Positions 37,285-62,574 of a DNA stretch of 64,000 nt are shown here, in pieces (within the stretch, counting starts at the first letter, position 1; every line of letters begins with the position of its first letter). Source of the stretch: Anaerolineaceae bacterium (GTDB taxonomy: Bacteria > Chloroflexota > Anaerolineae > Anaerolineales > Anaerolineaceae); the NCBI GenBank assembly GCA_012839565.1, contig DUMZ01000005.1:171444-235443 (forward strand), given 5' to 3'. Made by a program: the position numbers and the translations under genes. The notes below the pieces were generated by a model. That model was not told where the DNA came from and did no database searches. It was given only the letters and a program-made list of their open reading frames with translations.

Positions 37285-37312
37285 ATTATAGGTTTTTCGC
37301 GGGCGGAGTCAA
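37285..37312 (-). promoter_or_regulatory. pheST promoter
   Basis: TTGACT, 16 bases, TATAAT on the minus strand, giving a leader of about 45 bases. No T-box or leader peptide fits in this short leader. Confidence 0.8.
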
Positions 37313-38302: not shown

Positions 38303-39556
38303 TTACGGACGGTAAATAATCGGGTCAAGCCAAAGTCCGATATTGTCCTCGGCTGTGCCATGGTTCCATACCACCAGCGAGAAGGTGACTTTGTTTCCAG
38401 CCAATGCGCTAAGGTCGATAGAAATGGTATTCCATTTCTTTTCATAGACCTCAATCCATTCGCCCAGTTCGATGAACTTACCATCGCCAATTTTATAGTA
38501 CAACTCAAATTTCAAACTGCACTTCTCAGCACCGCCTTCACATTGAATCAAAGCCCGGAACTCATCGCCAGATTTAATGTTGATCGCGGGATAAATGCCC
38601 TGGATATAACCACCACTCACTGTTGGGCTGGGTCGTGTAATCAATCCTGGGTCGTTCTCTTTACCACCATCTTCGCGAATGGGGTTTTTCTCGTAAATGA
38701 CATAACCTTGACCCGCCTTTTTCCGGTCACCCGGGCAAGGAAGTTTGCTGTTCAAATCACTCGACCAATCGGCATCGCAGGCAGAAGTGGCGAAGTTATA
38801 AATCGCGCCTTTGCCATCCACAACTTCAATCTTCGCCCAAAAAGTGCCATCGCTCTTTGGTCCACCGCCAAACTTCACGCCATTAGGATTTACCATTTGC
38901 CACTCAGACGTATAAACGCCATTAGTCGTGGGCGCGGTCATTTCAATGGAGATTTCCACGGTTTCGCCAGGTTTTACAACTTTACGGAAATCATAAATTG
39001 CCGACGCTGCCAGCTGCGTGCCCCTTACAAAAGCGACATCAAAGCGTTCATCCCAGGTACAAGACCCCGTGTTCTTAATGCGCCAGGTCTTGGTAAAGGT
39101 ATTTCCACCGGGGATTTTCGTCCCGTCAGGAATGGTTACATCCGCCACAAAACTCAGCTGATAGCAAGGTATCGGTGTTGCCGTGGGTGCAGGACGCGTT
39201 GGCACAGCAGTTGGAGGTACTGCCGTCGGTGGCACTGCTGTTGGGGGCACACTGGTAGCAGGCACTGCGGTCGGTTCGACGGTATTGCTGGGTTGCACAA
39301 CCGGGCTTTCTGTCGGTTCAACTGGCTCGACAGGCTCGGTGCTTTCGACAGGCACGGTAGCTGTCAACTGTGCCACCAGGGTTTGAAAATGCTCTTGCGT
39401 TTGCTGCGCGATTAACGTTTGCTTGGCTTGTTCAATCGGGTCCCCCAAAGGTTTCTCGGAACCAGGTAAATTACAAGCCGCAAGGGCAACAACGGATATC
39501 ACAATCACAGCGACTGCGACAATCCAATTCGTTTTGAAAAAAGTTTGCTTCTTCAT
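38303..39556 (-). CDS. Lipoprotein with NBR1-like Ig domain
   Basis: 417 residues. The signal peptide ends in the lipobox LAAC (about residue 28). A coiled stretch and a Thr/Pro/Val-rich linker (VPPTAVPPTAVPPTAVPT, about 95-125) lead to an Ig-like domain of the NBR1 'next to BRCA1' type (FTKTWRIKNTGSCTW, then GVYTSEWQM; about 135-240). The last 170 residues are another beta-rich domain (SLKFELYYKIGDGKF) that I cannot name. NBR1-like Ig domains occur on surface proteins of Anaerolineae-like bacteria; their ligand is unknown. RBS AGGAG. Confidence 0.8.
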   Translation of the reverse strand: MKKQTFFKTNWIVAVAVIVISVVALAACNLPGSEKPLGDPIEQAKQTLIAQQTQEHFQTLVAQLTATVPVESTEPVEPVEPTESPVVQPSNTVEPTAVPATSVPPTAVPPTAVPPTAVPTRPAPTATPIPCYQLSFVADVTIPDGTKIPGGNTFTKTWRIKNTGSCTWDERFDVAFVRGTQLAASAIYDFRKVVKPGETVEISIEMTAPTTNGVYTSEWQMVNPNGVKFGGGPKSDGTFWAKIEVVDGKGAIYNFATSACDADWSSDLNSKLPCPGDRKKAGQGYVIYEKNPIREDGGKENDPGLITRPSPTVSGGYIQGIYPAINIKSGDEFRALIQCEGGAEKCSLKFELYYKIGDGKFIELGEWIEVYEKKWNTISIDLSALAGNKVTFSLVVWNHGTAEDNIGLWLDPIIYRP

Positions 39557-39629
39557 CTTAAGCTCCTATTTGTCTTAATAATCCAGACTTTACATATAAG
39601 ACGTATCCCAAGCGAAAAAAGTTCCAAAA

Positions 39630-39653
39630 AAAGCCACCCATTTAGGTGGCTTT
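39630..39653 (-). terminator. Terminator of the second NBR1-Ig lipoprotein gene
   Basis: Stem AAAGCCACC / GGTGGCTTT with a 6-base loop and TTTTTT on the minus strand. Confidence 0.88.
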
Positions 39654-39661
39654 CATCTTTT

Positions 39662-40351
39662 TTACGGCTTGCGCACTTCAATCTGGATGGACAGCCCCCA
39701 ATCTCCGTTTGGCCCATAACCAAATCTGATTCCATCAACTGTCATCACAACCCAATAACTGTAATAGGTTCCTGGTGTTTGTGGTGCCACCAGATCATAA
39801 AGCGTGACTGTTGTCGTCTCCCCGGGGGGGACATTTTCCTTAAAATCACCATACTTATTCGAACCGTAGGCTTCACCACCACTCAAATAGACGTCAAATT
39901 CTCTGGACCATTCACAGGTACCAGTGTTTCTGATTGTCCAGGATTTTTCGAATTTCTCACCTGGGGTCATGGTCGTACCTGCGGGAATTGTTTCAGATAC
40001 AAGCTCCATCGCATAACATTTTGTACCTGTATCCTGGGTAGGCGGTACCGTTGTCGCAGTCGGCTGTACTGGGTTAACTACTGCCGTAGGGGGTACCTGC
40101 GTGGGTGGGGGCGCCTGGGTTGGGATTTCAGTTGGGATGGGGGTAAACGTTGGCATACTCAAAGCGGTCAGCTGGGCTGCCATCGTTTCAACCGCGAACT
40201 GTGTCGCTCTTGCGCTCTGGGTTTCAAGCACCTGTCGTTGTAAATCTTCTTCAGTGTAAACTGGTTCCTGTTGACTCGGTTTACAAGCCGTAATCAACAA
40301 AACCAAAACGCTTAATATAATGAGTGCGTATGTAGTTTTTGTCTTTTTCAT
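39662..40351 (-). CDS. Lipoprotein with NBR1-like Ig domain (paralogue)
   Basis: 229 residues. Lipobox ITAC near residue 23, then a charged helix (YTEEDLQRQVLETQSARATQ), a Pro/Thr-rich linker, and an NBR1-type Ig domain (KFEKSWTIRNTGTCEW, then GTYYSYWVVM; about 120-225). It is a shorter paralogue of the neighbouring gene, lacking the extra C-terminal domain. Each copy has its own terminator, so the pair is probably not one operon. RBS CGGAGAG. Confidence 0.8.
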   Translation of the reverse strand: MKKTKTTYALIILSVLVLLITACKPSQQEPVYTEEDLQRQVLETQSARATQFAVETMAAQLTALSMPTFTPIPTEIPTQAPPPTQVPPTAVVNPVQPTATTVPPTQDTGTKCYAMELVSETIPAGTTMTPGEKFEKSWTIRNTGTCEWSREFDVYLSGGEAYGSNKYGDFKENVPPGETTTVTLYDLVAPQTPGTYYSYWVVMTVDGIRFGYGPNGDWGLSIQIEVRKP

Positions 40352-41708: not shown

Positions 41709-42767
41709 TTATGCCATCTTGCTGGCAATAAGCTTCGCCAAATCAACTGTGCGGCTGGAATAGCCCCACTCATTGTCATACCAGGTCACCACTTTCAGCA
41801 AGTTGGTGCCCATCAGCATATTGTTGGGCAGGTCAACAATTGAACTGCGTGTATCACCGCGGAAGTCCACCGAGACCAAAGGGTCGTCATACTCGCCCTT
41901 GACCACACCCACAATGCCCTTATATTCGCCTTCAGCGGCGTCAATAAAAGCCTGATTAACTTCTTCAATCGTCGTGTCTTTTTCAAGCAAAGCCACAAAG
42001 TCAATAATCGAAACCGTTGGGGTTGGTATGCGCAGAGAGTGGCCATCAAACTTGCCAGCCAGTTCGGGAATAACAAGCGCAATCGCCTTGGCCGCGCCGG
42101 TTGAAGTGGGCACAATGTTCAGAGCCGCAGCCCGCCCACGACGCACGTCCTTTTTATGACCCTGGTCCAGTAGCACCTGGTCGTTCGTATAACTGTGCAC
42201 GGTACTCATCACCGCGTTTACAATGCCCCAGTTGTCGTTGACAATCTTAGCCGCCGGCGCCAATGCGTTGGTGGTGCATGAAGCATTCGAGACAATGTGA
42301 TGCAGTTCAGGGTCGTATTTTTTATCGTTCACACCCATCACGATGGTGATATCTTCGCCTTTGGCTGGCGCGGTGATGATAACTTTCTTCGCACCAGCTT
42401 TGATATGCGCGTCCGCGCCTGTTTTGCCAGTTTTCTCATCACTGCGCGCGGTGGTAAAGACGCCCGTGGATTCGATGACCAAATCAACGCCAAGATCTTT
42501 CCAGGGCAAATTGTTGGGGTCACGTTCCTGCAAAACGTCAATCCAATGGCCATCCACAATCAGGTCATCGTTTTCGTCCACCACAACCTCACAGCTGCAC
42601 TTTCCGTAGCTTGAGTCGTATTTAAAGAGATGCGCGTTCATCTTACTGTCGTAAAGGTCATTAATCGCGACCAAATCCAGCAAGCCAGACTTATCGTCCA
42701 TGATAATTTTTGCTACCTGGCGACCAATTCGTCCAAAGCCATTGATAGCAACTTTTACTTTTTTCAT
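41709..42767 (-). CDS. gap: Glyceraldehyde-3-phosphate dehydrogenase, type I
   Basis: A 352-residue NAD enzyme of glycolysis. [13 protein letters not shown] is the cofactor site, [12 protein letters not shown] holds the catalytic Cys (near 165), the phosphate segments [20 protein letters not shown] follow, and [11 protein letters not shown] ends the core. A few residues longer than the usual 335-340. RBS GGAGGAA. Confidence 0.97.
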
Positions 42768-42825
42768 AAATTCCTCCAGTCAACAAGTTAAATTACTCGT
42801 TGAAAAACGTTTCCATATCAACTAC

Positions 42826-42831
42826 ATTATA
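42826..42831 (-). promoter_or_regulatory. Possible gap -10 box
   Basis: TATAAT on the minus strand 58 bases before the gap ATG; no clear -35. Confidence 0.35.
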
Positions 42832-42936
42832 ATCCTTTACAGCAAAGCATGCGGAAAAATGAAGAACCTTAGCCAGTTCAGACATTAATTAATGTCTACC
42901 TCACGTCCCATTTCGTATATCACAGATAAATTATTT

Positions 42937-42956
42937 GATTAGATTAGATTAGATTA
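42937..42956. repeat. (GATTA)4 tandem repeat
   Basis: Four perfect copies of GATTA in the gap-ABC intergenic region. Confidence 0.9.
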
Positions 42957-43040
42957 GACTATACTACTTTTGGACATGGCACACGGAAAGTTTTGTAAAT
43001 TTCCTGTTGACATAGTAGTTGCGAGTTTCTCAATTTCAAC

Positions 43041-43069
43041 TTGACAGCACCTTGAAGCTTTGTTATTAT
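43041..43069 (+). promoter_or_regulatory. Strong promoter of the ABC/GntR operon
   Basis: TTGACA (43041-43046), 17 bases, TATTAT (43064-43069) preceded by TGT. This is the best sigma-70-type promoter in the window. The start would fall near 43076, at the edge of the palindrome. Confidence 0.88.
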
Positions 43070-43075
43070 AAGCAT

Positions 43076-43105
43076 ACTAGTACACTATCTTAGTAGTGTA
43101 CTAGT
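43076..43105 (+). promoter_or_regulatory. Palindromic operator, probably for the GntR (YtrA-type) regulator
   Basis: Perfect 12-base arms ACTAGTACACTA and TAGTGTACTAGT around a 6-base centre (TCTTAG), starting at the predicted +1. Position and symmetry suit a repressor dimer, and the operon's second gene is a GntR regulator. Long inverted repeats with a TAGT/ACTA core are known for YtrA-type regulators. The pairing is inferred. Confidence 0.75.
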
Positions 43106-43124
43106 CGGAAAGGACAAAGACAAA

Positions 43125-43856
43125 ATGGAGCTGTTCGCAAATACTAATCTTGCTTCAAACCAATCTACCTCCAATAATCAAGGTGTGGATTACTTGGCCA
43201 TTGATGCTAGAAAAATAAGCAAGCGCTTTGGTAAAAATCAGGTGCTTGATAATCTCGACTTTTCACTGCCAAAAGGTCAAATCTACGGTATTAGCGGATC
43301 AAACGGGGTTGGCAAAAGCGTATTTCTTCGAATTATCGTAGGGCTTATTATCCCAGATTCGGGCACAATCATTGTTAACAATCAGAAAGTCGGTATAGAT
43401 GTCGAATTTCCAGATAAAGTCGGCGCACTCATTGACCACCCCGGGTTTTTGCTGTCTGAAAGTGCTTATCGAAATCTTCACCTGCTCGCTATCATTTCCG
43501 GCAAAGCCGATAAAGAATCTATTTATAAAACAATGCGTTTCGTTGGACTAGATCCAAACGACCGCAAACCTATTCGGACCTATTCTGTCGGCATGCGCCA
43601 ACGTTTAGGACTTGCCCAAGCCATAATGGAAGACCCTGACTTGCTCATTCTAGATGAACCTACCGCCGGATTGGATTTTGACGCGCAAAAAGAGATTTAT
43701 GACTATCTGCTTGCATTACGAAGAGAAGGAAAAACGATCCTTATCACCAGTCACAGTTTGAACGAAATAAAATTTCTTTGCGATAAAGCGTTCCAACTGC
43801 GTGATGGAAAGCTTGAACAAATGACCCAAATAGATTCCACCACAGCTTACAGGTAA
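43125..43856 (+). CDS. ABC transporter ATP-binding protein
   Basis: 243 residues with all ABC motifs: Walker A GSNGVGKS (near 63), signature YSVGMRQRLG, Walker B LLILDEPTAGLD and the switch His in ITSHSLN. A 25-residue Asn/Ser-rich start precedes the ABC core. It most resembles exporter ATPases of the YtrB/CcmA type, which pair with separate permeases; two such genes follow. First gene of the operon, under the palindromic operator. AAAGGA lies about 10 bases before ATG. Confidence 0.92.
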   Translation: MELFANTNLASNQSTSNNQGVDYLAIDARKISKRFGKNQVLDNLDFSLPKGQIYGISGSNGVGKSVFLRIIVGLIIPDSGTIIVNNQKVGIDVEFPDKVGALIDHPGFLLSESAYRNLHLLAIISGKADKESIYKTMRFVGLDPNDRKPIRTYSVGMRQRLGLAQAIMEDPDLLILDEPTAGLDFDAQKEIYDYLLALRREGKTILITSHSLNEIKFLCDKAFQLRDGKLEQMTQIDSTTAYR

Positions 43857-43860
43857 AAAA

Positions 43861-44244
43861 ATGGATAACAACTACAATAATTATGAACCTATCTATTTAC
43901 AGATTATCCGACGAATTTGTTATCAAATCTTCCGGGGTGAATATAAACCCGGCGATAAACTGCCTTCGTGGATAGACGCGGGCTTAGCATTTGACGTTAA
44001 TCACAACACCATTGCTCGCGTTTACCAGGAATTAGCCTTATTGGGAATCATTGAAACCAGACGAGGCGAAGGCAGTTTTGTGACTGACAATCAATCCCGT
44101 ATTGACGAATTACACGACAATATGAGAGACGATTTAATTTCAACCATGGTAATGGAAATGACTCAAATGGGCTATAGTCTCGACGACATCAACCAAGCTT
44201 TCAGTCGCTACATTGATTCGGTTAGTGAAGTTTCACATTATTAA
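43861..44244 (+). CDS. GntR family transcriptional regulator, YtrA type
   Basis: 127 residues. An N-terminal winged helix (PIYLQIIRRICYQIFRGEYK, PGDKLPSW, NHNTIARVYQELALLGII) is followed by a wing (TRRGEGSFV) and a short C-terminal helical part of about 45 residues. That small tail is the YtrA subfamily layout, usually linked to ABC exporter genes. It starts four bases after the ATPase stop, so it is expressed with its targets and probably represses the operon. Confidence 0.88.
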   Translation: MDNNYNNYEPIYLQIIRRICYQIFRGEYKPGDKLPSWIDAGLAFDVNHNTIARVYQELALLGIIETRRGEGSFVTDNQSRIDELHDNMRDDLISTMVMEMTQMGYSLDDINQAFSRYIDSVSEVSHY

Positions 44245-44279
44245 CAGAGATTATCCGCAAATAATCGGTTGAGGATATT

Positions 44280-45068
44280 ATGAAAAAAGCTAATGTCTAT
44301 AAAGAAGAATTCTTTAGGGCGTTTTGGAATCCACGCTGGCTTATTGTTATCCTGTTATCCATCATCATTTTTTTCATCGGAAATTATCGGTGGCCAATAC
44401 CGCTAAAGAACCCAGTTAATCGCATGATGATGCTTTTAGATTATGGTTACTTCGATTTTTTGGGAGCAGTACTCCTGGCAGTACCTTTCGCAGATTCATT
44501 TCTCACAGATTCACAGCAAGGGTTCACTCGATTCATCATTCAACGCACGAACTTTAAACATTACCTAAGCGCGAAAATTCTTGCAACAGGTCTTAGCGGG
44601 GGGGTAAGCCTGATTTTGTCTAATCTAATCGTCTTTTTGCTTGGGCTTGGAAAAGGCATTGACTTTTCCGATGTCAGTTTTAGAGCTGGGTATCAGGGAA
44701 CTATGCCATGGGGTCCGTTTTCTGAGTTATATGGGCAAAATCCATGTGCTTATTTCGGCTATCTTTTGCTGAGTGTGTTTATCTTTGGTTTTGTATGGTC
44801 ACTTTTAGCAATGTTTTTTTCAACGCTAAGCCGTAATCGCTACATTACCCTTGCAGCACCTTTGGTCATCACTCAAGGACTTCGTGTCCTAATCGAACGC
44901 AATGACATCGTTCCATATCAACTTAATGCTCTCTTTGGCTTACAACCTTATGCCGTGTTTTTTGAGCGACCCACTTTTTCTATTCAACTTTTACAGTATC
45001 TGGCTGTTCTTGTATTATCACTTATCGGTTTGTTTGTTTTTACACGGAAAAAACATGAAACAATCTAA
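44280..45068 (+). CDS. ABC-2-like permease subunit 1
   Basis: 262 residues, about six membrane helices: near 18-34, 65-80, 105-125, 160-185, 195-210 and 235-255. No substrate-binding motif is evident. Phe-rich and AT-rich in codon use. RBS TGAGGA; 35 bases after the regulator. It probably forms a heterodimeric exporter channel with the next gene product. Substrate unknown. Confidence 0.75.
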   Translation: MKKANVYKEEFFRAFWNPRWLIVILLSIIIFFIGNYRWPIPLKNPVNRMMMLLDYGYFDFLGAVLLAVPFADSFLTDSQQGFTRFIIQRTNFKHYLSAKILATGLSGGVSLILSNLIVFLLGLGKGIDFSDVSFRAGYQGTMPWGPFSELYGQNPCAYFGYLLLSVFIFGFVWSLLAMFFSTLSRNRYITLAAPLVITQGLRVLIERNDIVPYQLNALFGLQPYAVFFERPTFSIQLLQYLAVLVLSLIGLFVFTRKKHETI

Positions 45069-45077
45069 GGAAAAGAA

Positions 45078-45923
45078 ATGAAATCCTTTTTAACATACTT
45101 GAAGTTAGAACTCCAAAGTTATCTTTTTCGTTTACGATGGCTGTTACCAATACCTGTATTCGTTTATCTTTGTATGCATGCTAACGACTACTTAACAAGC
45201 TATTTAGCACAAATAGCCCCACAACTCCCAAATAGATGGGACTTATTGTTCGTGGTATTCGGTGATCAATATTATCTTTATCTTGGTTTAGGTCCACTCT
45301 TTATTTTTCTTATAAGCGATCTCCTACCTGAATCCAATCTTGGACAGATGAAGCTTTTACGCCTGAAATCGCGTAAGAAATGGTGGCTCGTAAAAGTATG
45401 CACTCTCTTTATCCTAACCTTGTTCTTTTTATTGTTGTTGCTTTCATTTGTCTCGGTAACAGCCTATATTACATTACCTGGTACGACAGGTTACTCAGAA
45501 CTGGCACAATTCGAACCCATGTTTCTTAATCTGGACATACGCTTCTTTGTTAAACTTCAGCCGCCAAGTCCAGCAATCTATTTCACACAAAATTTTGGGC
45601 TCTTGTTATTAGGATTCTTTAGTTTTGGACTAATCCTTCTATTAGTCAATCTAATAACAGATAGGTATTATCTTGGTTTGATAGCTGGTTTTAGCATTTT
45701 ACTTGTAAGTTATATAAGTGTGTCTTTAAGCGGGCCTCCCAGTTGGGCACGTTTCTTACCAGGCGTACATCTTAGCTATGTGCAAATCATCCCCTTTAGG
45801 TATGTTCCTCTCTGGCAATCTTTTCTATATTGGGTAATTCTAATCACCGTGACAATATCAATCGGTCTTCTGGTATGTAAAAAAAGGGACTTTAGTGCCC
45901 TTCAAGACAACACGGAGAAATAG
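45078..45923 (+). CDS. ABC-2-like permease subunit 2
   Basis: 281 residues with about six membrane helices (18-35, 70-88, 112-135, 170-195, 200-222 and 250-270). The KLLRLKSRKKWW segment after the second helix is strongly basic and likely cytoplasmic. No close family is recognised. RBS TAAGGAAAAG; nine bases after the first permease. Confidence 0.72.
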   Translation: MKSFLTYLKLELQSYLFRLRWLLPIPVFVYLCMHANDYLTSYLAQIAPQLPNRWDLLFVVFGDQYYLYLGLGPLFIFLISDLLPESNLGQMKLLRLKSRKKWWLVKVCTLFILTLFFLLLLLSFVSVTAYITLPGTTGYSELAQFEPMFLNLDIRFFVKLQPPSPAIYFTQNFGLLLLGFFSFGLILLLVNLITDRYYLGLIAGFSILLVSYISVSLSGPPSWARFLPGVHLSYVQIIPFRYVPLWQSFLYWVILITVTISIGLLVCKKRDFSALQDNTEK

Positions 45924-45926
45924 TAT

Positions 45927-46925
45927 ATGAAGAATAAAATCGCATCATTATTTCTTTTCCTCTTACTACTTGTCACAGCATGCGAAGCTCAATCCATTGA
46001 ACCTAGTCCGAATGAGTTACCAACTCCAAAGGTCTCATCAATGCACGATGAATTATCATCAGCATTAAACATCCCAACGCCTACACCTGAAGAAAACACC
46101 ATCATTCCAGACCACTTGCTTGTAACCCCAGACTGGAACTACACAGAAGAAAATCCGCTTACCGATCCAAACCTTATAATTGGCTGGTTTGAAAGACTAG
46201 ACGCGCTTGAAATAGCCTTAGTTAAAAAAGGAAGCTGGTACTTTGAAACCGAATCATATCAAGCTACAAACGATCCGCTTAACGAACCTGGTTATAAGAT
46301 CTCCTTTACGCATATACACGAAGACCGCATTGAATGTGACGAATATATTGAGTTTGAACCAAGCTGGGGCAGTATTACGGAAATTTACGATTATGCTAAG
46401 GCAGGAGAATTTAATATTACCTTTTATAGAAAACCTGGATACCCAGAGCAATACTACGTAGAAAGTCCAGACGCCTGTTGTAGCTATTACAGTGTTAAAG
46501 ATTCAGACTGGCGTCGCCCATTCATACTAACTAATTTTTACCCTACTTTTGAACATACACTATATCTATTGAAATTAAATGGTGATGCGTTTGGAAAAAA
46601 TGAATTTAAAATGTGGTTTGAAAAAACTGAAAACGCTGAATTATTACATTTTGAAGAGAATGCATGGGATACAACGGGTGGCTTTTTTACCAGCACTAAT
46701 TCCGAAATCCTTCCTATTACGGCTAAAACAACACATTTCATATTTGATGTTGCAACTGGACAAATGATTTACGAGTTTGAAACTTTAAAAAGCTATAATA
46801 ATGAAAGTAAAACGGATGAAGTTTACTACTATCAATTAGCCATGAATGACATTCCGCAAATATATAAAGATGCGATGAATAAGCTGTACCTGGATTTGGG
46901 AAAACCGCCACGTTGGGCAGATTAA
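45927..46925 (+). CDS. Lipoprotein of unknown fold, partner of the ABC operon
   Basis: 332 residues with a signal peptide and lipobox VTAC (Cys about 19), then a Pro/Thr/Glu linker (to about 60). The rest is an acidic, aromatic-rich extracytoplasmic domain with a vicinal DACCSYY Cys pair. I recognise no family. It starts three bases after the second permease stop, with GGAG before it, so it is the last gene of the operon and probably helps the transporter or senses its substrate. It converges on yvcK. Confidence 0.75.
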   Translation: MKNKIASLFLFLLLLVTACEAQSIEPSPNELPTPKVSSMHDELSSALNIPTPTPEENTIIPDHLLVTPDWNYTEENPLTDPNLIIGWFERLDALEIALVKKGSWYFETESYQATNDPLNEPGYKISFTHIHEDRIECDEYIEFEPSWGSITEIYDYAKAGEFNITFYRKPGYPEQYYVESPDACCSYYSVKDSDWRRPFILTNFYPTFEHTLYLLKLNGDAFGKNEFKMWFEKTENAELLHFEENAWDTTGGFFTSTNSEILPITAKTTHFIFDVATGQMIYEFETLKSYNNESKTDEVYYYQLAMNDIPQIYKDAMNKLYLDLGKPPRWAD

Positions 46926-46955
46926 AGGGATATGGCTTTTTCCGTTGGCGAAAAC

Positions 46956-48293
46956 CTAATCAAAAAGTGGCCCGGTGCGTTCTTCAAAGACGCTTATAAT
47001 CGCTTTGGCCAATTTTTTCGAGTCATGTCGCCAGGGATAAAGCCCATCAACCAAATCTGTTTCATAGACCTTATAAGAGCGTCGGCTGGTCGCGTCGTTG
47101 CGCACCCAATCGACTCCTTCACCCAAATCGCCTTTAAAGTTGTTGTTGCTAATGACCAAATCGAAAATGTTTTTGCCAATATGCTGTTCTAAAACGTGCA
47201 TATGATCAGACACATTAAAACCGTCCGTCTCGCCCCGCTGCGTCGCCACATTTGACACCAAAAAGACCTCCGCGCGACTGCTGCGTATGGCATCAACCAA
47301 ACCCGACACCAACAGATTAGGTAAGATGCTGGTATATAAACTGCCTGGCCCGATAAGAATCAAATCCGCGTTCAAAATCGCCGCGACGGTTGGCGGATAA
47401 GCTTGCGCGTTTGATGGATCAAGCAAAACACGCAAAATCCTGCCATTCGCCCCTGTAATTTTGCTTTCACCTTTGATATGCACAATCTCATCGCTGTCGT
47501 GCAAGCGCACATCACCCACCAGTTGCACGTTACTCAGCGTAGATGGCAATACCTTCCCATAAATCGCCAAAACACGCCCGGATTCCGCCACCGCTTCTTC
47601 AAAACTGCCGGTAATCTCTGCCAGCGCGGTGATAAACAAGTTGCCCAATGAATGCCCCTCAAGCCCGGCACCCGATTTGAAACGGTACTGAAAAACCTGC
47701 GAAAGCAAGGCTTCATCGTTACTCAAGGCGCTTAAACAGTTGCGGATATCCCCTGGGGGCAAAACGCCCAAATCACGGCGCAGTTCACCCGACGAACCGC
47801 CATCATCCGAAACGGTCACGATGGCCGTAATGTTATGCGTGTAAGCCTTGATGCCACTAAGTAAAGTTGCCAGTCCATGCCCGCCACCAATCGCCACGAC
47901 CTTGATGCCGCGGTCTTTGCGCCGATATTGCTGCACGGCCTCCCAGGCCGGGCGTCCCTCGCGTTCAAAAGGTTTGAGCACCGCGCGATTAGCCCCCCAA
48001 ATGCCGAAGAGAATCAGCGTGAAACCAATCCCGCCGAAAAGCAGAAATCGAATGGGACGGTCAAGAAATCGGAGAGATAAAACTGCCAGGATAGGCGTTA
48101 GAAATTCGTTAGTCGTTGTGCGGTAGTATTGCAGGACAATCACTGCCAGGCCTAAGCCCAGCAACATCGCGCCGATGACGGTCAAAGCCAGCCATCGTTT
48201 ATAGCCGAGGCCAGGCAAAAACCAGCGGAACTCACGGTTGAGTTTGTCTGTAAAACGCTTCCACCAGCTCGTTTTCTTCCCGTTATCGTGCAT
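46956..48293 (-). CDS. yvcK: YvcK/CofD-like UDP-sugar-binding protein with N-terminal membrane region
   Basis: 445 residues. The YvcK core (from about 125) has KVVAIGGGHGLATLLSGIK, VSDDGGSSGELRRD, PGDIRNCLSAL and GPGSLYTSILPNLLV. In B. subtilis YvcK binds UDP-GlcNAc and is needed for wall synthesis under gluconeogenic growth. The core is usually about 320 residues; here about 120 extra residues hold two membrane helices (about 28-50 and 82-103), so the protein is probably anchored. A TTGACG-17-TATTAT promoter ends exactly six bases before ATG, with no SD. Confidence 0.9.
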   Translation of the reverse strand: MHDNGKKTSWWKRFTDKLNREFRWFLPGLGYKRWLALTVIGAMLLGLGLAVIVLQYYRTTTNEFLTPILAVLSLRFLDRPIRFLLFGGIGFTLILFGIWGANRAVLKPFEREGRPAWEAVQQYRRKDRGIKVVAIGGGHGLATLLSGIKAYTHNITAIVTVSDDGGSSGELRRDLGVLPPGDIRNCLSALSNDEALLSQVFQYRFKSGAGLEGHSLGNLFITALAEITGSFEEAVAESGRVLAIYGKVLPSTLSNVQLVGDVRLHDSDEIVHIKGESKITGANGRILRVLLDPSNAQAYPPTVAAILNADLILIGPGSLYTSILPNLLVSGLVDAIRSSRAEVFLVSNVATQRGETDGFNVSDHMHVLEQHIGKNIFDLVISNNNFKGDLGEGVDWVRNDATSRRSYKVYETDLVDGLYPWRHDSKKLAKAIISVFEERTGPLFD

Positions 48294-48371: not shown

Positions 48372-49295
48372 TTATAAAGCTTCGTCTGAGAAAAAATCAT
48401 AGTCAATTTTCTTTATCTCATAAGACGTGTTTAACGTTACGCCTACATTATAGTCAATCATAAGTTCAGCGAGTCGTTCGCCATCAATCAAGATTACCTT
48501 GGCGTCAATTTTTTTAGCATAATTAATGGCGTCCTGCGTAAATTTTGCTGTGGTAATAAAAACGCCTCTTCGGGCATGTTGACCAAATAGTGCACCAACA
48601 AATTTTTGAATTTCTGGTCTACCGATTGAAGAATCCGATTTCCAATTCTTTGCTTGAATATAAATCGTATCCAGCCCTAACTTATCCTGGTCAATAACAC
48701 CATCAATCCCTTCATCGCCATGCCGGCCAACTGCACGGGCTAATTCCCGCTGAGTGCCTCCATAGCCCATTTTATGCAAGAGTTCAACAACCAGCTTTTC
48801 AAAAAAGCCAGGTGACGTGGATGTCACAACGTTTAAAACTTCTGCAGCTAATGTCTCCCGTAACTCCTGGTATGCTGATTCCATTATCTCTTCTGGTGTT
48901 TCAATTGAATCTGTTTCTGATTTTTCTACTATCTCATCACTTCTTTGGGGTCTCCTTTGTCTAAACTTAACAAACTCAGGGTAGCGAGATAGTATTTTAT
49001 TATTAATAGCTTTTGGATTTTCCGCCAGTAAATCAAGCCCTCTTTGTGTTATCTTAAAGTAAGTTCGTCTTGGATCTTCCAAAAGTTTAGCTGCTTTCAT
49101 GTAAGACCTGGCCCAACCAACACGATTATAAAAAACTGACTGAGTACCGCTCGGTAGTAATGCCCCTTTTTCTTCTTCGGTTAGCTTGAAATAATTACTT
49201 AATTCTTCAACTGCGTCATGGATATAGTGTTCTTTTCCATCAGATGCCAGTTTTAATAGTGGCAGCATGATTGTTTGAAAATCTGGAATTGCCAT
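48372..49295 (-). CDS. Mrr-type restriction endonuclease family protein
   Basis: 307 residues. The N-terminal winged-helix Mrr_N domain (about 5-95; GTQSVFYNRVGWARSYMKAA, RRTYFKITQRG) is followed by a PD-(D/E)XK domain (about 160-300) with the split motif GDEGIDGVI ... IYIQAKNW, Asp and Gln-x-Lys at the catalytic positions. Such proteins cut methylated DNA (type IV). No methylase or specificity subunit is nearby. ATG 49295 has GGAG at 11 bases; the track GTG at 49307 would overlap that SD. It is 36 bases after the mevalonate decarboxylase gene and may be read through from it. Confidence 0.88.
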   Translation of the reverse strand: MAIPDFQTIMLPLLKLASDGKEHYIHDAVEELSNYFKLTEEEKGALLPSGTQSVFYNRVGWARSYMKAAKLLEDPRRTYFKITQRGLDLLAENPKAINNKILSRYPEFVKFRQRRPQRSDEIVEKSETDSIETPEEIMESAYQELRETLAAEVLNVVTSTSPGFFEKLVVELLHKMGYGGTQRELARAVGRHGDEGIDGVIDQDKLGLDTIYIQAKNWKSDSSIGRPEIQKFVGALFGQHARRGVFITTAKFTQDAINYAKKIDAKVILIDGERLAELMIDYNVGVTLNTSYEIKKIDYDFFSDEAL

Positions 49296-49331
49296 ATTTG
49301 TCTTCACTCCTTCAGTCCTTTAAGTTCTCGC

Positions 49332-60500: not shown

Positions 60501-61607
60501 TTATTCGTTGAGTGATTCTCTCGTGGCTTGCTTGCCACGCCGGCGCATAATGTCCAGCAAACGTGGCAAAACCTTCGTGTAAAGATTGTAGAGCAAGGGT
60601 CTGGCCAAAAAATCCCAGGCACCAATGTGTCGCGCGGTTGTGCCGTTGAAGCCTTCTTTGAAACGGTAAACACCCCAAAGACTGTCGCTTTCGTCGAAGA
60701 CATCCGGCGCGCCCCACATATCGTAACTTTCGCAACCCAGCTGTTTGGAAAGTTTTATCGCTTCCCATTGCAAAAGGTAATTTGGCATCAACTCCCGATA
60801 TTTGTCAGTAGACATACCATACATATACCGTGCCACACCGTTAAAGTGAAAGATAAACAGTCCCGCCACCGCTTCACCTTCAACTTCGGCGATAAGCGCG
60901 TGGCACATATCAGCTTCCACAAAACTTTCCCAAAGCTCCAGATAGTAATCTTCTCCGCGGATAACAAAATCATCGCGTAAGGCGGTATACGCGTAAGTCT
61001 GATAAAGCATGGGTAAGTCAGCCAAACTTGCCTGACGCACACTTACACCACGTCGCGTGGCAAGCCGAATGTTGTAGCGTGTTTTTTGTTTCATCGCGGC
61101 AAGGATTTCTTCTTCATCGCGCGTCAAATCGATAAAAACAGTGTTACGAAATTGAATCTGGTCTTGCGAAAACAACCAGTTCCGTCCCTTGAGTTCGTTT
61201 TCAAACTCAACACCTAATGCTGATACTGTTTCATCTTCTGCGCCAGGAACACCGGTACCTAAAAGCACATCAGGGTCGATTTTGAGAAAGATAGCTTTCT
61301 GATCGCGCGCGTAGTTCTGCAAATCGTCTAAAACCCGTTCGCGTAAGGCTTTGTTCGCCCAGTTAAGGTTCGGACCCTTGGGACAATATAAAACACGCAG
61401 GCGGAGAAAGCCAAGTTTGAGTTCCCGTCTCAAAAAAAGCGCGCAGGCTTCAATATTTTGAGCTTCGTTATACCAAACAAAGGTTTCGGGCGTCCAGCCG
61501 TTGCGGATTTTTGACGCGCCCCATTCCCAGGTCTGTAAAATATGCGCCTCAGGGAACTGCAACAAAAGCTGGTTCCACTCACTTGGCGTCGTCTTAAAGG
61601 CTTGCAT
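60501..61607 (-). CDS. FemAB-family aminoacyl ligase 2
   Basis: 368 residues of the FemX/FemAB GNAT-fold family, which transfer amino acids from aminoacyl-tRNA to peptidoglycan stem peptides. Visible are ILQTWEWGASKIRNGW, MKQKTRYNIRLATRRG and YLLQWEAIKLSKQLGCESYDMWG. The start overlaps the previous FemAB gene by 14 bases (ATG 61607); the longer ORF (61679) lies in it. The amino acid added cannot be read from sequence. It ends in a basic tail (RRRGKQATR). Confidence 0.9.
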   Translation of the reverse strand: MQAFKTTPSEWNQLLLQFPEAHILQTWEWGASKIRNGWTPETFVWYNEAQNIEACALFLRRELKLGFLRLRVLYCPKGPNLNWANKALRERVLDDLQNYARDQKAIFLKIDPDVLLGTGVPGAEDETVSALGVEFENELKGRNWLFSQDQIQFRNTVFIDLTRDEEEILAAMKQKTRYNIRLATRRGVSVRQASLADLPMLYQTYAYTALRDDFVIRGEDYYLELWESFVEADMCHALIAEVEGEAVAGLFIFHFNGVARYMYGMSTDKYRELMPNYLLQWEAIKLSKQLGCESYDMWGAPDVFDESDSLWGVYRFKEGFNGTTARHIGAWDFLARPLLYNLYTKVLPRLLDIMRRRGKQATRESLNE

Positions 61608-62574
61608 TTTCGCCACCTGTCCGCTTATTTCTAAGCCAGCGATAAGCTTTGTACAAGAGGGGTTTAAAGACCTTAACATAAGCTGGTGCGGAACGCTTCA
61701 CTTCACCACCAAAGCCGCGTTTGAAGCGATAAACACCCCATAAGCCATCCGAACGTAACATAAATTGTTCTTCAAGCTCGTCTTCATCAGCATCAGGAAT
61801 GCCCCACATATCATACAGTGTGGCACCGTGGACCTTGGCATAACGCATGGCTTCCCATTGCAAGAGATAGGTAGGCATCAGATTACGATGCTTGTCATTT
61901 GACGCGCCATAAAAATACCAGGCACGCTGCCCATATAAAAAGAGCATCAAATAGGCCAGTGATTCACCTTCATACGATGCCCGCAAAAGCACACACTGAC
62001 CTTTTGGTTCAAAGATTTCAAACGCATTTTGGTAATAAGGCAGACTGTGTAGCGCAAAACCATCCCGTCCGCTGGTGATAAGCATCTGCTCGTAGAAATC
62101 ATCCAGGTCGTGGCTCGTTTCAACCTTGATGCCCTTGCGTTCAGCCAGGCGAATGTTATAGCGGGTTTTTTGTTTCATTGTCGCTAGAATAGTCGTTTCT
62201 TCCGAACTGATATCAATCAGAATCGTGCCACGTGGTTGTATTGTTGCTTCGTCTTTTATGTAATTTGGAAAGACACTGTCTAAACCAGCAGTGTCATAAG
62301 GCTCGTCAAGGTCAGGTTCAATTTGCAGGAAAACCGCGTTGCGCTGACGACATTCAGTTTCAATTTTGGGCAACAATCGCGTCCATTCTTCACCAATGCC
62401 CGCTTTCGGCACATAAGCTACCGAAAGTCCAAGAGGCAAGCGCTTGAACAGCACCAGTGCCGACTCTTGCCCGCTATGTAAGCGGACTGGTTCCCATCCA
62501 TAGCGCGCCTTAAATTCGCCCCAGCTATCGGTTTGCAGAATATGCTGGCTGGCAGGAAAAGCAGAAAATGTCAC
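61594..62574 (-). CDS. FemAB-family aminoacyl ligase 1
   Basis: 326 residues, a paralogue of the downstream gene with the same blocks: ILQTDSWGEFKARYGWEP, MKQKTRYNIRLAERKG, HRNLMPTYLLQWEAM and TLYDMWGIPDADE. The start is GTG 62574, one base after the stop of the sugar transferase gene, so translation is coupled. Two ligases in a row suggest a bridge of two residues or two linkage steps, as with FemA and FemB in staphylococci. Confidence 0.9.
   Translation of the reverse strand: MTFSAFPASQHILQTDSWGEFKARYGWEPVRLHSGQESALVLFKRLPLGLSVAYVPKAGIGEEWTRLLPKIETECRQRNAVFLQIEPDLDEPYDTAGLDSVFPNYIKDEATIQPRGTILIDISSEETTILATMKQKTRYNIRLAERKGIKVETSHDLDDFYEQMLITSGRDGFALHSLPYYQNAFEIFEPKGQCVLLRASYEGESLAYLMLFLYGQRAWYFYGASNDKHRNLMPTYLLQWEAMRYAKVHGATLYDMWGIPDADEDELEEQFMLRSDGLWGVYRFKRGFGGEVKRSAPAYVKVFKPLLYKAYRWLRNKRTGGENASL

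Follow-up and report, generated by a model that had tools for sequence, protein, structure and literature searches.

A probably laterally acquired YtrA-type ABC-2 exporter cassette with a lipoprotein of an undescribed family in Anaerolineaceae

The window, the whole 64-kb stretch of DNA analysed here, comes from a genome assembly of 1.97 Mb in 20 contigs. Its open reading frame listing reveals five genes on the + strand in the region 43041–46925, separated by intergenic gaps of 3–35 bp and arranged in the order ATPase, YtrA-type GntR regulator, permease A, permease B and lipoprotein. None of the five frames is disrupted, and their ribosome-binding sites are plausible. Pfam assigns the first gene to ABC_tran and the second to GntR, and has no family for either permease or the lipoprotein. 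The open reading frames and Pfam assignments agree with the gene content given by an earlier, sequence-only reading of the locus, which described five tightly spaced genes including an ATPase, a YtrA-type regulator, two unlike permeases and a lipoprotein. The features of the locus are as follows.

41709–42767, − strand: gap
42768–46955, no strand: full gap–yvcK interval holding the inserted operon (comparison with congeners)
43041–43069, + strand: sigma-70-type promoter, TTGACA-17-TATTAT with TG before the −10 element (consensus match only)
43076–43105, no strand: probable operator, a perfect 12-6-12 palindrome at the expected transcription start (sequence only)
43125–43856, + strand: ABC ATPase, 243 aa (Walker A GSNGVGKS, signature YSVGMRQRLG, Walker B LLILDEP)
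43861–44244, + strand: YtrA-type GntR repressor, 127 aa, without a membrane segment (Pfam, profiles, solved relatives)
44280–45068, + strand: permease A, 262 aa, probably of ABC-2 type (hydropathy, weak ABC2_membrane_3 matches in relatives, fusions)
45078–45923, + strand: permease B, 281 aa, ABC-2 fold (AlphaFold2 model, match to PmtCD 6xjh)
45927–46925, + strand: lipoprotein, 332 aa (signal peptide with Cys19, low-confidence model)
46956–48293, − strand: yvcK

The operon has a GC content of 0.390 compared with 0.495 in the rest of the window (z = −3.35), the lowest value among its 3.8-kb stretches, which bears out the AT-richness remarked on in the sequence-only reading. The neighbours of the cassette are gap, pgk, yvcK and mrr. 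Comparison with congeners revealed an empty site. There are 26 congener yvcK–gap loci, two of which were left out because the stored contig ends before the test is possible, and in 24 of the 24 testable loci yvcK is followed directly by gap. Only in this genome does the cassette lie between these genes, which are here 4.2 kb apart with the operon on the opposite strand. In the nearest congener by yvcK (G120, 90% identity), the spacing is 368 bp, and only the start region of gap itself and the end of yvcK align with the window locus. G120 has a module elsewhere; since its ATPase is 71% identical to that of the window, against 90% for yvcK, this module is not a simple displaced orthologue. The module recurs across Anaerolineaceae, and its copies in relatives mostly match the GC content of their surroundings, so that the AT-richness is peculiar to the window copy. 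Lateral acquisition of the cassette by this lineage, which had been suggested earlier, is thus well supported by the empty site and by base composition.

A GATTA repeat that had been taken as a mark of transfer does exist, as four units at 42937–42956, but nothing shows it to be a boundary, and it was rejected as such in view of the restricted extent of the G120 alignment. The window copy of the module showed no integrase, and a phage or plasmid origin was also rejected, as the lipoprotein lacked a plasmid match and permease B a phage match (E 0.01). In another genome (G105, L048:3167–13501), a fused permease–ATPase–lipoprotein set together with ECF sigma and DUF4367 genes lies no more than about 6 kb from genes for a tyrosine integrase, MobC and a relaxase. 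The region has the appearance of an integrative mobilisable element and suggests that mobile DNA can carry cassettes of this kind. Just upstream of yvcK in the window lies a gene for an Mrr-type restriction endonuclease (48372–49307, 38.9% GC); an mrr match is absent from the stored yvcK flank of G120 and other congeners, and this gene is possibly a second acquisition beside yvcK.

The promoter at 43041–43069 scores 11/12. It had been described as the strongest in the window; it is indeed close to consensus, but it ties with a site at 37312 on the minus strand. The palindrome downstream, ACTAGTACACTA-TCTTAG-TAGTGTACTAGT, stands alone in the 64 kb as a perfect inverted repeat whose arms reach 12 nucleotides and whose loop does not exceed 10, and shuffled sequences never produced its equal. 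The perfect 12-6-12 repeat reported at +1 is present. Palindromes of the type CTA-N6-TAG occur at the promoters of four of 11 modules (window, L031, L033 and L095), or three of ten without the window, where shuffling leads to an expectation of about 3% per module. This pattern was chosen post hoc from the window palindrome, and its recurrence is therefore support rather than proof. The host genome contains one site of this type; the regulon is therefore probably limited to the five-gene operon. Together with the short gaps and the shared strand, the related palindromes and the single genomic site are consistent with the single self-regulated operon proposed in the sequence-only reading, and we regard the palindrome as the probable operator of the cassette regulator.

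The regulator itself (Pfam GntR, 1.3e-10) is closest among solved structures to GntR proteins of 125–128 aa, the size of YtrA, and its closest named relatives are from Anaerolineaceae (Chloroflexota). Its score of 45.7 bits against the NCBIfam PmtR profile is below the equivalog cut-off of 200. It is a short GntR protein with a reduced C-terminal domain, encoded in the same operon as ABC genes both here and in relatives, with a single long palindromic predicted operator at the promoter. YtrA regulators mostly control one ABC-transporter operon each, and their operator is usually one long palindrome (PMC4494728). The footprint of PmtR covers 36 bp and overlaps the transcription start (PMC5080381), and the same layout of a predicted operator over the start site argues in favour of autorepression.

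Turning to the transporter, the ATPase is canonical save for an acidic residue (LIDHPGF) at the position of the Q-loop glutamine. Most ABC ATPases have glutamine here, and an acidic residue replaces it in the LanFEG ATPases, forming an E-loop. The residue is Asp in ten of 11 aligned ATPases and Glu in L046. The best NCBIfam match of the ATPase is to LanF (TIGR03740, 1e-47) at 162.7 bits, below the cut-off of 309.75; the PmtC profile gives 144.8 bits, below the equivalog cut-off of 375, and the best bacterial relatives of solved structure include PmtC 6xjh. Permease A has five clear helices by hydropathy, where six helices and about 250 aa are expected of the LanFEG type, and two of its relatives have a weak ABC2_membrane_3 match. 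Of the permease pair, permease B was modelled with AlphaFold2 (pLDDT 80.5, pTM 0.80) and has an ABC-2 fold, its top solved match being PmtCD 6xjh (probability 1.00, TM 0.60/0.66), followed by NosY. As the E-values are modest (best 0.0035), this match shows fold rather than close kinship. The statement that the permeases fit no known family is upheld as far as Pfam is concerned but not in the case of the permease B fold. In several congeners, permeases A and B are fused as one protein of about 600 aa, which supports a heterodimer of the two. The five-gene operon encodes one ABC_tran protein, and a second ATPase and a MacB or FtsX domain are absent from it by Pfam. The permease family extends through its own family of bacteria, a few other families of the order and class and three genomes in other families of the phylum. 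In L046, L047 and L049, an extra, third permease-like gene is situated between permease B and the ATPase.

The fold match to PmtCD and the profile matches to LanF, PmtC and PmtR place the transporter and regulator in the group of YtrA-type ABC-2 exporters, as divergent members of the known Pmt/LanFEG/Ytr group. The suggestion that the system as a whole is undescribed is consequently not sustained. The novelty lies in the empty site, in the family of the lipoprotein and in the connection of that family with ECF anti-sigma factors.

The lipoprotein consists of a signal peptide with Cys19, a Pro/Ser/Thr-rich linker and an undescribed domain with the motifs YTEENPLTD, GSW, W230 and FD..TG. Searches of Pfam, NCBIfam and the PDB gave no match beyond weak ones at chance level, in keeping with the view that it resembles no known family, and by this measure we conclude that it belongs to an undescribed one. 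A profile from nine relatives identified full-length members in one further genus of the family and, within the genus itself, in seven genomes, that of the window among them; a second family of the order later contributed two genomes. Profile matches covering the signal peptide and linker only, which were the majority across the family, were discarded, and two first-look matches (L040 and L041) were rejected as unrelated proteins.

In the neighbourhood search that the sequence-only reading proposed, this type of transporter adjoins the gene in 12 of the 15 full-length relatives, the remaining three lying at or near contig ends. The position of the lipoprotein gene varies: it comes before the ATPase in L042 and L037, after GntR in L031 and L033, after the permeases in the window and L032, and after the ATPase in L048 and L038. 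Several modules, L035 and L036 among them, are without an adjacent lipoprotein gene, and the pump can therefore apparently do without it. At L031:5048–12992, two differing module copies face each other, one with GntR and the other behind an ECF sigma gene.

In both L031 and L048, lipoprotein–pump sets lie behind ECF sigma and DUF4367 genes. At L166:6002–8567, an ECF sigma gene is followed by that of a 665-aa zf-HC2 anti-sigma factor in which two domains of the lipoprotein type are arranged in tandem after a hydrophobic segment. These neighbours and this fusion suggest that the domain is an envelope sensor, and the association with sigma and anti-sigma factors is consistent with the role in envelope stress put forward in the sequence-only reading. 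The arrangement is reminiscent of sensing by ECF sigma factors, anti-sigma factors and RseB; the window, in contrast, has a GntR regulator and a free lipoprotein, which lacks sequence similarity to Escherichia coli RseB. More tentatively, and as a possibility that we do not rate as probable, the domain could define a new family of envelope sensors deployed across differing control circuits in Anaerolineales, free beside YtrA-repressed pumps, beside ECF-sigma pumps and in tandem in a zinc-finger anti-sigma factor, each detecting the same envelope damage or peptide and setting a pump or a sigma factor.

On balance, the locus probably represents an exporter cassette of ABC-2 type that arrived by lateral transfer, regulates itself and protects the envelope; in this reading, the regulator represses, an envelope-active compound derepresses, the pump clears the compound and the lipoprotein binds or senses on the outside. 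The gene order, promoter match, palindrome, absence from congeners, recurrence of the module and adjacency of lipoprotein and transporter genes are read from the sequences. In this scheme, the YtrA-type GntR protein would bind the palindrome over the start site and shut off its own operon until repression was relieved by a compound, probably a peptide, that acts on the membrane or on lipid II. Two ATPases, one permease A and one permease B would form a LanFEG/Pmt-like pump, which would expel the compound from the membrane. For derepression and export, the basis is what is known of the families together with the arrangement of the genes. The lipoprotein, outside the cytoplasmic membrane, may bind the compound or a damaged envelope component and hand the ligand to the pump or report on it; this step, the least certain part of the mechanism, rests on co-occurrence and one fusion.

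In gene content there is a parallel with LanFEG plus LanI immunity and CprABC-type resistance transporters, which likewise pair a single ATPase with two unlike permeases and a lipoprotein, LanF being the subfamily of the best, though sub-threshold, ATPase match. LanI lipoproteins and LanFEG pumps split the work of lantibiotic immunity (PMC5786555), a division which we use as a model for reading the cassette and not as evidence of a lantibiotic substrate. The cassette differs in having a GntR regulator in the operon and a lipoprotein of no known family, and no lantibiotic genes adjoin it.

The Bacillus subtilis ytrGABCDEF operon also couples a YtrA-type autorepressor to an ABC transporter and an extracytoplasmic partner. 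It is induced by lipid II-binding antibiotics without a consistent survival benefit (PMC12772383), which counts against a protective exporter here. The cassette could by analogy be a wall-homeostasis module, its transporter acting on a lipid-linked wall precursor or on turnover and antibiotics mimicking the natural signal; the regulator subfamily and operon logic are in common, and Ytr stimulates wall synthesis without a consistent effect on resistance (PMC12772383). We nevertheless regard this as unlikely, since Ytr has two ATPases and the MacB-type YtrF, in place of which the cassette has one ATPase and an unrelated lipoprotein, and since patchy distribution and arrival in one lineage fit an accessory protective trait better than housekeeping.

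The Staphylococcus aureus pmtR–pmtABCD system, an exporter of phenol-soluble modulins, shares with the cassette a YtrA-type repressor in the operon, an operator over the start site (predicted here), the ABC-2 permease fold (for permease B only) and a PmtC-like ATPase. That PmtCD is the best fold match for permease B and that PmtR and PmtC profiles match would be accounted for by an exporter of a self-made peptide whose regulator senses the cell's own product. Pmt, however, is encoded by two genes each for ATPase and permease and lacks a lipoprotein, whereas the cassette combines a single ATPase gene with divergent permeases and a lipoprotein, and reaches neither of the Pmt equivalog cut-offs given above. 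Moreover, within the window no biosynthetic or peptide-precursor gene was recognised beside the cassette, and the insertion comprises the cassette alone, although small peptides may be encoded in other parts of the genome. Peptide export and peptide removal may fit the gene set alike, but on these grounds we think it improbable that the peptide is the cell's own.

A third possibility, that the lipoprotein is a LolA-type carrier of lipids or lipoproteins and the transporter moves envelope lipids, arises from Foldseek matches to LolA (probability 0.99) and RseB (0.96), with LprF and LmcA weaker. These were obtained with a weak model (pLDDT 60) at TM values of 0.19–0.38, and profile comparison with LolA and RseB, including E. 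coli RseB, by hhalign gave nothing beyond the signal peptide, so that kinship by sequence was rejected. The RseB and LolA-like Pfam families have no match in the host genome. LolCDE transporters have permeases of a different type, and we judge a Lol-like function highly unlikely. Finally, the AT-richness and presence at this position in one lineage alone could indicate transferred cargo without a present role in the host, but the five frames are intact and have plausible ribosome-binding sites, the promoter is close to consensus and the palindrome is perfect, which makes this the least credible of the explanations.

A literature search for the five-gene module in Anaerolineaceae returned nothing relevant, and to our knowledge no system of this kind has been characterised in the family. 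The protective exporter that we favour would be a well-bounded, single-operator, horizontally acquired set. Its lipoprotein establishes a domain family that Pfam lacks, and the gene neighbourhoods and the fusion of this family link pumps with signalling by sigma factors. Should the lipoprotein domain be a sensor, it would provide a compact means of studying how removal of membrane-active compounds is coupled to gene control.

Two further loci in the window were noted. Two adjacent lipoproteins encoded at 38303–40351 contain N_BRCA1_IG domains, and two tandem overlapping genes at 60501–62574 belong to the FemAB family, that of the lipid II interpeptide-bridge transferases.
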